A DNA stretch of 27,334 bases from a virus, in IMG/VR virus record IMGVR_UViG_3300042355_000499, positions 1 through 27,334 of that record. One strand, written 5' to 3'. This document shows, one piece after another, positions 21,737 through 25,626 of the stretch. A program made the position numbers and the translations under genes. The notes beneath the pieces are model-generated. The model was not told the origin of the DNA. It worked only from the letters and a program-made list of their open reading frames with translations, and ran no database searches. How positions within the stretch are numbered: position 1 is the first letter of the stretch; the number at the start of each line of letters is the position of its first letter.

Positions 21737-22222
21737 CTAACTATCAGTGTCCGCTTTGTTGGCCGGAAGTGCCTTGCCCCATTTGCCGATGGGACACGCC
21801 TGATCCGCCCATGAGAGCTTGGACACATACTCCTTGGCACGCTTCACGGGACAGCCGCACTTGGTGCAGGCGTTGTCCTTCATAAACTCGCACCCCATGC
21901 AGATGTCATGGCGGCGGATGATCTCCTCATCCGAGGCCATTGGCATGCCGGCGGCGACGTGCTTGGCAGAGGCGACGGCGAAGTTGCGGACCTTCTGGAG
22001 GAATGAAGGCGCGTCGGTGCGGGTGAGGTCGGGTGGCGGTTCAGCGGGCTTCGGTTTCGGCGGAACGAACCCAGGCTTCGGCACACGCGGATACGCCGGA
22101 TGGTCAACGTCTACGGCGATCTGGTCGCCGTCTTCGCTGACGATGCAGGGCCGCACTTCGTCCAGCGTGTAGCCGCGTTGGAGGCAGCGGGCGGCGAGGT
22201 GTACGCGGTGGCAAGTAATCAT
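21737..22222 (-). CDS. Zinc-ribbon-like protein with N-terminal RGYTLDEV module
   Basis: The 161-residue product has two parts. Residues 8-45 read HLAARCLQRGYTLDEVRPCI then VSEDGDQIAVDVDHPAYPR, a small module I recognise in environmental phage proteins. After a Pro-rich linker (48-65), residues 105-150 hold C108xxC111, C119xxC122xC124 and C143 in HDICMGCEFM, CTKCGCPVK and ADQACPIGKWG, a ribbon-like metal site. An upstream extension to 22282 is open, but the ATG at 22222 is chosen because it overlaps the TGA of the large Cys-rich gene as ATGA. No enzyme motif is seen. Nucleic acid or protein binding through the zinc ribbon is plausible. Confidence 0.7.
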   Translation of the reverse strand: MITCHRVHLAARCLQRGYTLDEVRPCIVSEDGDQIAVDVDHPAYPRVPKPGFVPPKPKPAEPPPDLTRTDAPSFLQKVRNFAVASAKHVAAGMPMASDEEIIRRHDICMGCEFMKDNACTKCGCPVKRAKEYVSKLSWADQACPIGKWGKALPANKADTDS

Positions 22223-23610
22223 GGTAGCGGGTTCTCCTGATTGTCTTCCTTGTAGTATCTGCCAGACCCGCCTCCGATGCACGACTCCACTATGACGGAG
22301 CCGAGCCGATCAGTCAGCGATCCCTCAAATGCCCCGCCGGAGTCAATCGAAACGGCGGTAATAGAGCCGTTTGCATCAACTGCTGAGACTGAAGCATAGA
22401 CGCCATCGACAGCCAGTCCGTCGTTACTGCTCGCAATTTCGATCTCCACGCCGTCGCCTACTGAATAGCCAGAGCCGCCATTGGACACAGAGAACCCAGA
22501 GACTCCGTAAACGAGTCGCTGGCCCTTGCCGCAAAAAGGCGGCAAGACAGATCCAGGCTGTCCTCCGTACCCAAGCCCGGCGAGTTCTACCCATGACGCA
22601 CTAATCTGCGCGCCAGTACCAGAGCCGTGAACGATTACCGTGGCGTTCCTTGGCTCTTCAACTGCGACCCACGCATACGCTTTCGCGTGATACTCCGCCG
22701 TGCCGCCATCGGACACCGAAAAGGAAACAACGGCACGCGGAGAATACCCACTGCCCCCATTCGTTACGGACACGCTTTCAACGATCCAGTAAGGAGCCTC
22801 AATGCAAAAGTAGCCCCCCGGGGCTTCAGTTTGTTGCGACAGCGTTACCGAGAGCGCGGCCCCCGTTCCGCCGGATGCCGTCGCCGTCACGGTTGGGGCA
22901 ACCCTGCCTTTCCTCGTAATCTCTGGCGCACCATGGTTCTCCTGCTCTCCGTCTGGGTCGATGCAGATTGTGATGTCGATACTTGCGCCAAACCCCACAG
23001 TGTCACGGCAAGCAACGGTGAACTCTCGCTCGTTCCAAGGAAACGTAATTCCGCCATTGGTTGCGTCCTGATATGGGCCTTCAACGGAGCCGATGGTGTG
23101 CGCACCTACGCAGCACGGGGCGGGCTCGTTTGGGATTGGACTGCTGTAGCCAAGACACCCCAAGGTGTCGGGGTACGGTCGTATCTCACCTGCGAGCGGG
23201 CCAAAGGCTATCTCTGTCAGCCCTGGATCAAGTTCCAAATCCGTCGTGACGCTCTGTCCGTTGATTAGCAGATCGTCGTTGACCACCCCGCTGATATTCA
23301 GCATGACTGGAAGCGAGTAGCCGTCCGGGATGCGGACGGTGTGCGTGAAGTTTCCAGCCGCCGAGCAATCGCCGACATACCCCGTTTCCCTACTGCAACG
23401 GATCGCCGCACAAGGATCACACGGCTCCGCCTGACAGACTCCAGAGCAGCAGTACTCCCCAGCCTGACAACAAGCCCCAGTGGGCCCGCCGCAGCAGCAC
23501 TTACCCTCCTGGCCCTCGGTGCAGCTAACGCCGCCACAACAACACTTACAGCAAGCCACAGGATCACTCCAGAAGGCCGTTGACACTAGACAAGTGTCCA
23601 CGGGCGTCAC
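22219..23610 (-). CDS. Cys-rich N-terminal surface/adhesin-like protein with GSGY repeats
   Basis: The product is 463 residues. Residues 20-82 contain 18 cysteines in clusters (CCKCCCGGVSC, KCCCGGPTGACC, EYCCSGVCQAEPCDPC), suggesting a disulfide- or metal-stabilised knob. The rest is beta-rich with GSGY repeats (NGGSGYSPRAVVSFSVSDGG near 285, NGGSGYSVGDGVEIEIASS near 378), the same module that is inserted in the nozzle-like protein. No enzyme motif is seen. It is the first leftward gene after the GC-rich hairpins. The GTG at 23610 lacks a clear RBS; other GTG codons are open at 23601 and about 23559, the last with GGAG ahead, so the start is uncertain. A receptor-binding or virion-surface role is likely but unproven. 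Confidence 0.65.
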   Translation of the reverse strand: MTPVDTCLVSTAFWSDPVACCKCCCGGVSCTEGQEGKCCCGGPTGACCQAGEYCCSGVCQAEPCDPCAAIRCSRETGYVGDCSAAGNFTHTVRIPDGYSLPVMLNISGVVNDDLLINGQSVTTDLELDPGLTEIAFGPLAGEIRPYPDTLGCLGYSSPIPNEPAPCCVGAHTIGSVEGPYQDATNGGITFPWNEREFTVACRDTVGFGASIDITICIDPDGEQENHGAPEITRKGRVAPTVTATASGGTGAALSVTLSQQTEAPGGYFCIEAPYWIVESVSVTNGGSGYSPRAVVSFSVSDGGTAEYHAKAYAWVAVEEPRNATVIVHGSGTGAQISASWVELAGLGYGGQPGSVLPPFCGKGQRLVYGVSGFSVSNGGSGYSVGDGVEIEIASSNDGLAVDGVYASVSAVDANGSITAVSIDSGGAFEGSLTDRLGSVIVESCIGGGSGRYYKEDNQENPLP

Positions 23611-23778
23611 GGGAGGCTATCGGCCGTTAAAACGCAAGCCAGAGGCCCTGGCGACACACGGCGTCAGAGGGGCGGTGGGAGAGTGGGAAAGTGGGTTTTA
23701 GGCCGCGGAAACATATGGGGGCCAGGAGGGTGAAAAAAGTCAGGAGGGGAATTGACATGATCCTGAGAGCCGCAGGGG

Positions 23779-23899: not shown

Positions 23900-23942
23900 T
23901 TGCCAACCGGGGCCGGTTTCAATCCCGGGCCCCGGTTGGCAA
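23900..23942 (-). terminator. Perfect 15-bp hairpin after the 270-aa gene
   Basis: TTGCCAACCGGGGCC (23900-23914) pairs perfectly with GGCCCCGGTTGGCAA (23928-23942) around a 13-nt loop. It begins three bases after the stop of the leftward gene at 23946, where a terminator is expected. There is no U tract after it, so it may need a factor or act by blocking RNA decay. Confidence 0.55.
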
Positions 23943-23945
23943 GCA

Positions 23946-24758
23946 TCAGCCCACAATCTCCCTACAGTCACCCGCCGACACCCCCTGCGGGAGGGCCTTC
24001 CGGCTTTTAGCCGTGGCCGGATTAGGTATTGAGCGTACAACCCGCCCGATGCCCAACGTCGGCCGATAGTGGCCGTTTGATTCGATCCGGTGGGGAACGC
24101 TCCCCACCCGTTCGAATCGGTAATCCCTCGCTTCTCGTATGTCGATGGCCGTGTGGGTTTCATACCTTCCAACAACATCGACGGTGTACACCTTCCGGCC
24201 CCTACGCCGCATGATCCGGAAGGGGCGCGGGGCGTCGGCCGGAGTGAACGCCACACCCCCCCGATACTTCAATGGGAGCCCCTTGCGGGATCGGTAGCGC
24301 TGCGCCGCTGGGGACAACACTAGTTCCCCCGTGGCCGATTCAACGGCCGACACTATCCGGGCCGGGTCGGATGCCCGGGATGCCGATCCGGCTCCCGTAA
24401 ACTCTTCCGGCTCCCGGCGACGGTCGGCCACCCGGCGGGTCGCCCCCTCCGACCGCCAACCGCGTTTCCGCGCCCGTCCGGCATGGAAGAGGACCGCCCG
24501 CAAATGCCGGCCCATGTCCGACAGTGTGGGCGGGAATAGCGTCCGGCCGTGGCGGGCGAGAGATTCAATCTCCCTGGCCGTCCAATCGTCCCCAAGCCAA
24601 TCCGCGACGATGGATTGGCGAACATCTTCCCGCTGATCCTCCCGCAAGGGAGTTTCCCCGAACGTCGATCCGTGGCGGTTCAAGTATCGGTCTACCCTTG
24701 CGACGATAGCCTCAATATCGGCGGCTGAAATGGTCGCGGGATCATACATATCACTCAT
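23946..24758 (-). CDS. Unknown basic protein, candidate regulator of the divergent region
   Basis: The 270-residue product has an acidic N-terminal helical part (ADIEAIVARVDRYLNRHGS, then LREDQREDVRQSIVADWLGDDW) that vaguely recalls sigma-region-2-like or helical DNA-binding folds. A very basic middle follows (RARKRGWRSEGATRRVADRR), then a beta-rich end (FRIMRRRGRKVYTVDVVGRY). It is Arg-rich throughout and probably binds nucleic acid. The ATG has an excellent AGGAGGT seven bases upstream, and that RBS lies inside a 15-nt element repeated in the adjoining spacer, which suggests autoregulation. It is transcribed leftward, away from the accessory cluster, and ends at a strong hairpin. No family is recognised. 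Confidence 0.6.
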   Translation of the reverse strand: MSDMYDPATISAADIEAIVARVDRYLNRHGSTFGETPLREDQREDVRQSIVADWLGDDWTAREIESLARHGRTLFPPTLSDMGRHLRAVLFHAGRARKRGWRSEGATRRVADRRREPEEFTGAGSASRASDPARIVSAVESATGELVLSPAAQRYRSRKGLPLKYRGGVAFTPADAPRPFRIMRRRGRKVYTVDVVGRYETHTAIDIREARDYRFERVGSVPHRIESNGHYRPTLGIGRVVRSIPNPATAKSRKALPQGVSAGDCREIVG

Positions 24759-24858
24759 GGCAGATACCTCCTAAGGTTATCCCGGGAAACTATCGTCCCC
24801 GGCGATGAATGAACTAGACCATATATCGACCGGGGCGTCAAGAATAATTTCGGAATAT

Positions 24859-24907
24859 CCCCCGGGGGTATCTGCCATATATCAACGGCCACCAACGGCC
24901 GACACCG
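24859..24907 (+). repeat. Copy A of 48-nt imperfect direct repeat
   Basis: It runs from the CCCCCGGGGG palindrome through TATCTGCCATATATCAACGG to GGCCGACACCG. By eye it matches copy B at 25030-25078 in about 41 of 48 positions after one single-base gap. Confidence 0.65.
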
Positions 24908-25029
24908 ATATACAATCGGCCACGGCCGAACGTATAACATTGTCGGCCACGGCCCGACGGACGCTGCCTGCCTGATACTATCGGCCGGGCAGCCAACGTC
25001 GAAAACGGCCGAAAACTTTCCGGGTTTTT

Positions 25030-25079
25030 CCCCGGGGGGTATCGGCCATATGTAACCGGCCGACAACGGCCGACAACGC
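25030..25079 (+). repeat. Copy B of 48-nt imperfect direct repeat
   Basis: It runs from CCCCGGGGGG through TATCGGCCATATGTAACCGG to GGCCGACAACG. It lies 171 nt after copy A and about 50 nt before the first rightward gene, a good place for an operator. Confidence 0.65.
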
Positions 25080-25082
25080 GGG

Positions 25083-25098
25083 AAGTAACGTATTACTT
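25083..25098. promoter_or_regulatory. AAGTAA-CGTA-TTACTT dyad
   Basis: A 6-bp inverted repeat with a 4-nt centre lies 33 nt before the ATG of the first rightward gene, outside the CGGCC array. It has the size of a repressor half-site pair and may set early transcription to the right. Confidence 0.35.
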
Positions 25099-25131
25099 TC
25101 TGCGCATGCGGGCAGTTAAAGGAGTCTTTCC

Positions 25132-25626
25132 ATGTACCAGCCCGAACGGCTGGAGCGCTGGAAGATGCCCGAGAGTTACTTCGGTGCCGAATGGCCGGAG
25201 TATTACTCCTCGGGTGTCGGGCGTTCCAGGGATTCGGACTGCCTGGAGGAATCCAACTTCCATTCGATGCTGGCAGCCCTTGGTGGTGAATCGGACACCG
25301 TTCGCGTTGTCCGTGAATCACACTGGGCGGTCGGCTGGGTGGAGTGGATTGCTATCCATGAGTCCGATGAGAAGTCACTGCGGGCAGCCGATGGGCTGCG
25401 GCAGAACCTGGACGATTACCCTGTCTTGGATGAGGACGATTGGTCCAGACGGGAAGACGAGGAGTGCGAGCGCGTCTGGTCGGACTGCTATACGGCCAGG
25501 GAGCGTGTTCGCTACCTCCGCGAGCGCGGCTGCACTGCTGGGTTCCGTGATCTACGGGCAGCGGTGAGCGGTGATTGGGGATCGGCGTGCAGTCTGCTGC
25601 CATGCCCAAGTGACCTGATTAGTTGA
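25132..25626 (+). CDS. Conserved acidic phage protein, 164 aa
   Basis: The 164-residue product is acidic and Trp/Tyr-rich. The core VVRESHWAVGWVEWIAIHES, followed by AADGLRQNLDDYPVLDEDDW, matches a pattern I recognise in many hypothetical proteins of phages and their hosts (SHW..GW.EWIAI...DYPVLDE.D). No enzyme motif is visible, and the name and function of the family are unknown to me. AAAGGAG precedes the ATG by seven bases. It is the first gene of the rightward cluster, downstream of the CGGCC array, and is followed by a hairpin. The position suggests early expression. The C-terminus is probably flexible and holds two Cys. Confidence 0.75.
   Translation: MYQPERLERWKMPESYFGAEWPEYYSSGVGRSRDSDCLEESNFHSMLAALGGESDTVRVVRESHWAVGWVEWIAIHESDEKSLRAADGLRQNLDDYPVLDEDDWSRREDEECERVWSDCYTARERVRYLRERGCTAGFRDLRAAVSGDWGSACSLLPCPSDLIS

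Follow-up and report, generated by a model that had tools for sequence, protein, structure and literature searches.

In lambdoid phages the immunity region pairs the regulators CI/Cro with the operators OR/OL. Cluster A mycobacteriophages carry as many as about 30 operator/stoperator sites per genome, which are dispersed and mostly not promoter-associated (PMC6550527). Repressor and binding-site motif diverge together in these phages, and heteroimmune types have a distinct site consensus (PMC6550527). The HK022 put RNA is about 70 nt long and comprises two stem-loops with shared sequence (PMC9378689). A literature search found no paper on the early switch of phages that infect Planctomycetes, and such switches seem little studied.

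The locus considered here lies in an IMG/VR virus fragment of 27.3 kb in which a phage portal was matched; the window is the whole of this stretch, 27,334 nucleotides. Likely genes left of 24758, including structural genes, run leftward and those right of 25132 run rightward. The spacer between the divergent genes is a fast-changing control region that separates a regulator-like gene from early genes. It is interpreted, with moderate confidence, as an early control region of the lysis-lysogeny or immunity type from a temperate genus that probably infects planctomycetes, in which a candidate regulator is paired with its own cores.

The spacer is built of a two-copy unit, at 24858-24907 and 25029-25078, with 84% identity over 50 nt and a spacing of 171 nt. 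Each copy displays, in order, an AT-rich dyad with a C/G block, a TATNTA-like block and CGGCC words. The initial annotation had drawn attention to the words but had not described the two-copy structure, the role of the repeats as hairpin arms, the likely leftward promoter or the strongly folding rightward leader (Table 1).

Table 1. Positions of features in and around the spacer; positions refer to the window except in the last row
Feature	Position	Strand	Remarks
Leftward gene, candidate regulator, 270 aa	23946..24758	-	hypervariable in relatives; RBS AGGAGG before ATG
L copy of core (GGAGGTATCTGCCAT...)	24757..24784	-	inverted repeat with R1; overlaps RBS and start codon of leftward gene
Putative promoter PL, TTGACG-17-TCTAGT, sigma70-like	24813..24841	-	best leftward site; would serve leftward gene
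R1 core (TCCCCCGGGGGTATCTGCCATATATCAACGGCCACCAAC), putative early promoter/operator	24858..24896	+	repeat analysis, comparison with relatives
Folding leader of putative rightward transcript from R1	24885..25115	+	contains all eleven CGGCC; z -7.6
CGGCC starts	24886, 24896, 24917, 24923, 24944, 24950, 24982, 25006, 25043, 25057, 25067		
Hairpin GGCCGACA..(TCGGCC ACGG CCGA)..TGTCGGCC	24897..24948	+	inverted repeat and fold
Hairpin CGACG..GCTGCCTGCC..CCGGGCAGC..CGTCG	24955..25001	+	fold
R2 core (TCCCCGGGGGGTATCGGCCATATGTAACCGGCCGACAAC), second copy	25029..25067	+	repeat analysis, comparison with relatives
Hairpin CGGCCG-ACAA-CGGCCG	25057..25072	+	directly 3' of R2
Leader hairpin CGCGGGAAGTAA-CGTA-TTACTTTCTGCG	25077..25104	+	in most relatives
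Conserved leader decamer ATGCGGGCAG	25106..25115	+	followed by RBS AAGGAG, 25119-25124
First rightward (early) gene, 164 aa	25132..25626	+	conserved, independent of array type
Genuine sigma factor of a relative	L113:9444-10076	-	equivalents in G005, G009, G010, G013, G014, G018

Eleven CGGCC cores in about 190 nt had been reported, and the spacer does contain 11 within 186 nt (24886-25071). Dinucleotide shuffles of the 203-nt segment averaged 1.17 and peaked at 6, none of 2000 reaching 11, and in 100 shuffles of the whole contig the densest 190-nt stretch held at most 6. When CGGCC and GGCCG are counted together, the array has 17 per 190 nt and the runner-up site of the contig 9. Both words are frequent in the contig (120 copies of CGGCC, 125 of GGCCG), as would be expected if the array arose by chance or from the composition bias of a CGGCC-rich genome. 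That explanation is already refuted, by the shuffles and by the presence of the array in every relative of type A, the CGGCC type; its probability is practically nil. Among type-A phages the number of CGGCC words outside the cores differs. The tandem 10-nt spacing is correct at 24886/24896 and 25057/25067. The TCGGCC-AC-GGCCGA dyads originally described, two in number, are unequal: the one at 24916-24929 is perfect and the one at 24943-24956 (TCGGCCACGGCCCG) imperfect. As CGGCCG is its own reverse complement, many of the tandem repeats double as hairpin arms. The words are not the whole story, and that notion was rejected: relatives bear other words at the same place, and what holds more generally is the duplicated core.

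The position of the putative PL converges in 14 of 20 relatives, where the best leftward promoter-like site ends 47-60 nt upstream of the leftward start codon. In the window alone PL is no stronger than expected by chance (equalled by 23 of 200 shuffles), and a strict match for it was not found there. R1 and R2 would also be promoters; they display the TATNTA-like block but no TTGACA-type -35, and perhaps are not promoters of the host enzyme for that reason. Several types have a third core at the start of the leftward gene. This L copy is clear in 6 of 18 phages tested, and across the 18 the L copies resemble the R cores of the same phage (permutation 14/20000).

The arrangement is reminiscent of the lambdoid region in that a regulator gene and an early operon diverge with duplicated sites between them, specificity is swapped as a cassette and an integrase is found in the genome. 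Duplicated cores and divergent genes are observed here; as counterparts of the divergent lambdoid promoters, PL is assigned by consensus and the R promoters are putative. Unlike the lambdoid sites, the cores are 35-40 nt long and oriented, and the leader folds strongly. A further difference is that no HTH_3 (PF01381) CI-like repressor scored above cut-off in the seven near-complete relatives, with 14 of 14 controls positive.

A divergent spacer that has repeats, palindromes and AT-rich patches and adjoins the gene of a basic protein might also be an iteron-type replication origin with the leftward protein as initiator, and the initial annotation had considered this. Cumulative GC skew argues against it: in a 59-kb relative (G003) the extremes are at 33 and 59 kb and the array is at 22 kb. 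Genes for replication and recombination (SSB, ERF, helicase) are located elsewhere, the repeat letters of R1 and R2 differ in some phages, and the cores have an orientation, with a leader and an RBS after them. An origin is thus a very improbable reading. In the window, the change of skew coincides with divergent transcription.

Relatives were gathered with the leader ending ATGCGGGCAG as the pattern, and two later scans added a second batch; as the decamer was the search handle, the set is biased toward carriers of the exact decamer. Approximately 30 relatives have a common layout, consisting of a leftward sigma70-like PL, R1 and R2 cores and the leader with this ending. All leader-bearing relatives display the same spacer layout with type-specific letters: CGGCC in the window's type, CGTCCG/CGGACG in another and others elsewhere. 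Conservation of the spacer, which the initial annotation had proposed to compare among related phages, thus extends to layout and duplication, with letters conserved within a type only. In IMG/VR, 64 relatives of the right-hand 164-aa protein were found, and those nearest to the window have in common a leader that ends in ATGCGGGCAG. Terminases are 72-97% identical wherever measured, which places the phages in roughly one genus. In a cultured-phage database the leftward protein has no relative, and the portal and the 164-aa gene have one weak partial match each. Close homologue searches with type-B and type-E leftward proteins yielded no contigs beyond those already known.

Terminase relatives are found on a 55-kb contig in a Pirellulaceae MAG and also in another genome from that order. 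Planctomycetota are therefore the probable hosts, although the binning of a phage contig with a MAG is weak host evidence. The contig (L128/L146-L148, JAGYIQ010000016.1, 55 kb) is a near-complete relative with a type-E array and regulator candidate. PF00589 integrase-family matches at E <= 0.001 are present in six of seven relatives of at least 57 kb, two of them above the curated cut-off and four below, and a serine recombinase (Resolvase) is found in two genomes. These matches, which come from relatives as the window is a fragment, indicate that the phage group is temperate. The early and middle regions of two relatives, G003 and G010, show matches to a Subtilase-family protease, a PDDEXK nuclease, an ERF recombinase, SSB, a DEAD helicase, a C5-methylase and a HATPase.

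Comparisons across types support a link between the cores and the leftward protein. R1 matches R2 of the same phage far better than R2 of other phages (mean 45 versus 17 for other types), a likeness reached in 0/20000 permutations, likewise in 0/20000 when type labels are permuted, and repeated in 10 relatives fetched afterwards (0/20000). Core similarity tracks leftward-protein similarity among 29 phages (Mantel rho 0.515, 0/5000), and the core of the protein-nearest phage ranks in the top 3 in 23 of the 29, where 3.1 are expected by chance. At the same time, the right-hand 164-aa protein is 65-90% identical across array types. In the pair L004 and L005, the right-hand gene is 90% and the left-hand gene 33% identical, and the spacers are unrelated. 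The terminase of L072 is 97% identical to that of the window, with a different protein type and array. As the right-hand gene and terminase are conserved where protein and array differ, gene and spacer change as a unit.

This suggests a matched regulator-and-target pair, whereby each phage type has its own motif and its own neighbouring protein. The correlation supports a functional pair but is short of proof, because linkage alone could make an adjacent gene and spacer correlate. The operator-like control region with the 270-residue neighbour as partner, as first proposed, is in this way supported indirectly, by co-variation of cores and protein and by their joint change between conserved sides. 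A motif that diverges with the candidate regulator recalls Cluster A. Unlike the dispersed Cluster A sites, the cores are confined to the R1/R2 (and L) locus in four near-complete genomes (G003, G009, G010, G014), and scans of the family libraries assigned the candidate regulator to no repressor family.

The leftward protein has a confidently predicted four-helix N-domain and a poorly predicted, Arg-rich remainder. The Arg-rich character noted initially is confined to the C-terminal part (pI 11.2; 6.4 in the N-domain). No Pfam, NCBIfam or PHROG family match and no PDB sequence match was found; the candidate appears to represent an unnamed protein family, in no family of the libraries searched. 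Three features lie to the left of the array. Immediately 3' of the stop codon of the leftward gene is an inverted repeat, TTGCCAACCGGGGCC/GGCCCCGGTTGGCAA (23900-23942), possibly a terminator, and a hairpin with a T run is found at the equivalent place in the Pirellulaceae MAG contig. A possible late-promoter element, CATGTCAATTCCCCTCCTGACTTTTTTCACCCTCCTGGCCCCCATATG at 23712-23759 (-), separates the leftward gene from the structural genes and is seen again in relatives. At 22219-23610 (-) is encoded a cysteine-rich protein with CCC/CC-G repeats (VACCKCCCGG...), which has Cys-rich relatives of variable length in other phages.

The predicted N-domain offers a lead. With the model of L072, a type-E phage, the top seven VIA-align rows (Z 5.3-6.6) are without exception sigma factors or initiation complexes that contain sigma, and unrelated rows begin at Z 4.7; the window model gives several weaker sigma rows (Z 3.3-4.8), and the absence of other folds from these lists is no evidence. 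An ED/DD-x-x-Q/S pattern, as in sigma region 2.2, is seen by eye. The N-domain may thus resemble sigma region 2, in predicted fold only, and family membership is not claimed. The predicted arrangement is like that of region 2 in the ECF sigma factors AlgU, ShbA and BldN; unlike these, the protein has no sequence-family match and no recognised region 4, and Z is below 8. One reading is that the leftward protein is a much-diverged sigma-like factor that activates the early operon, with R1 and R2 (and L) as its promoters and the type-specific letters beside the TATNTA block as its recognition sequence. The fold rows, the pattern and the contrast between a sigma70-like PL and R cores that lack a sigma70 -35 are consistent with it. 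On the other hand, Foldseek against the PDB found nothing significant, and Z values below 8 in a helical bundle may reflect just a common arrangement. Sigma70_r2 is not matched by sequence in any of 18 members of the family, nor does the leftward protein match a sigma family of Pfam, NCBIfam or PHROG. An Hhalign profile comparison with the phages' own sigma leaves region 2 unaligned, and region 4 is not seen in the C-terminal part, which is predicted with low confidence. In addition, a sigma factor has no need of extra CGGCC copies and hairpins, and the type-A L copy cannot be the promoter of the gene because it overlaps the start codon. Such a sigma-type pairing is considered unlikely, although it is one of the two main alternatives to the favoured reading.

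The phages do have a genuine sigma factor. In each near-complete relative the early region has a gene for a Sigma70_r2 protein at its far end, in G003 and G010 close to a serine recombinase; the window fragment ends before it. The possibility that the cores are promoters of this sigma was rejected. In two pairs of relatives the sigma is 98% identical and the cores are unlike (in G010 and G014, for example, the arrays differ), so the cores are not its promoters.

The rightward leader displays strong folding. From R1 to the leader, the rightward strand has z values of -3 to -12 in 20 phages (-7.6 in the window) and a mean of -6.0 in 10 further phages; in the window, 24881-25111 has z -8.1 against a contig background of -0.57 +/- 1.33. 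Folding is strong at the start of the 164-aa coding region as well (25121-25411, +; z about -4 to -6). Better folding of the rightward strand than of its complement was evident in the first set (mean z difference -2.28, p 6e-5, the related phages being non-independent; G-U 198 against 104), whereas in the second the difference is small (-0.8, p 0.06). The hairpin after R2 keeps its position with swapped letters in type A, in type B (CGTCCGA-TTCAT-TCGGACG or CGTCCG-ATCCAA-CGGACG) and in L078 (GGGGCGA-CAAC-TCGCCCC). The leader hairpin, with stems counted sequence by sequence, exceeds the 95% background level in 13 of 19 relatives.

A functional leader RNA is therefore plausible from these sequence comparisons, and it might be argued that the words matter solely as hairpins of a structured early leader, either put-like in antitermination or acting on mRNA stability, with the protein co-variation due to linkage. 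Folding strength, the strand difference of the first set and the retained hairpin position speak for it. The fold, however, is not conserved in detail, as pairs are often broken between close relatives: changed pairs are still paired in 38% (+) versus 29% (-), and RNAalifold shows many broken pairs in types A and B. The strand difference weakens in the new set, R2 of several type-E phages has no hairpin, and an Rfam match at the gathering threshold was absent from the four sources searched, window included. The core itself, beyond the hairpin, is also duplicated and type-specific. This RNA-only reading, the other main alternative, is improbable. As with HK022 put, hairpins would form in newly made early RNA, 3' of early promoters that are putative here. 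It differs in that the region spans about 200-280 nt, its letters are type-specific and its fold is unconserved in detail.

According to the favoured reading of the spacer as an early control region, PL, a host-type promoter, would express the leftward protein, a hypervariable DNA-binding regulator. This protein would bind the phage's own core at R1 and R2, which precede the early operon, and in certain types at a further copy where its own gene begins, thereby setting early transcription and its own level. We infer that it represses rather than activates. The CGGCC words would supply the self-complementary letters that differ by type, both in the cores and in the hairpins that directly follow them, and might act as DNA binding half-sites, as hairpins of the early leader or as both. 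The early transcript would carry the strongly folded leader, which may have a function as RNA. The system would work like a phage immunity region, yet a CI-type repressor above cut-off was not found in seven near-complete relatives, nor were dispersed sites in four.

A bolder proposal is that of an immunity module in which a hypervariable regulator derived from sigma region 2 acts on tandem promoter cores and the same letters recur in a structured leader, such that specificity lies on DNA and RNA at once. This is speculative and rather unlikely; if true, it would represent a new kind of phage immunity module. If the pairing of regulator and cores holds, these phages provide, at a single locus whose flanks are conserved, about 30 natural pairs of regulator and target, from which it could be read how specificity is encoded and predicted which phages exclude each other. 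The regulator may also be a case of a sigma-like fold that serves another purpose.
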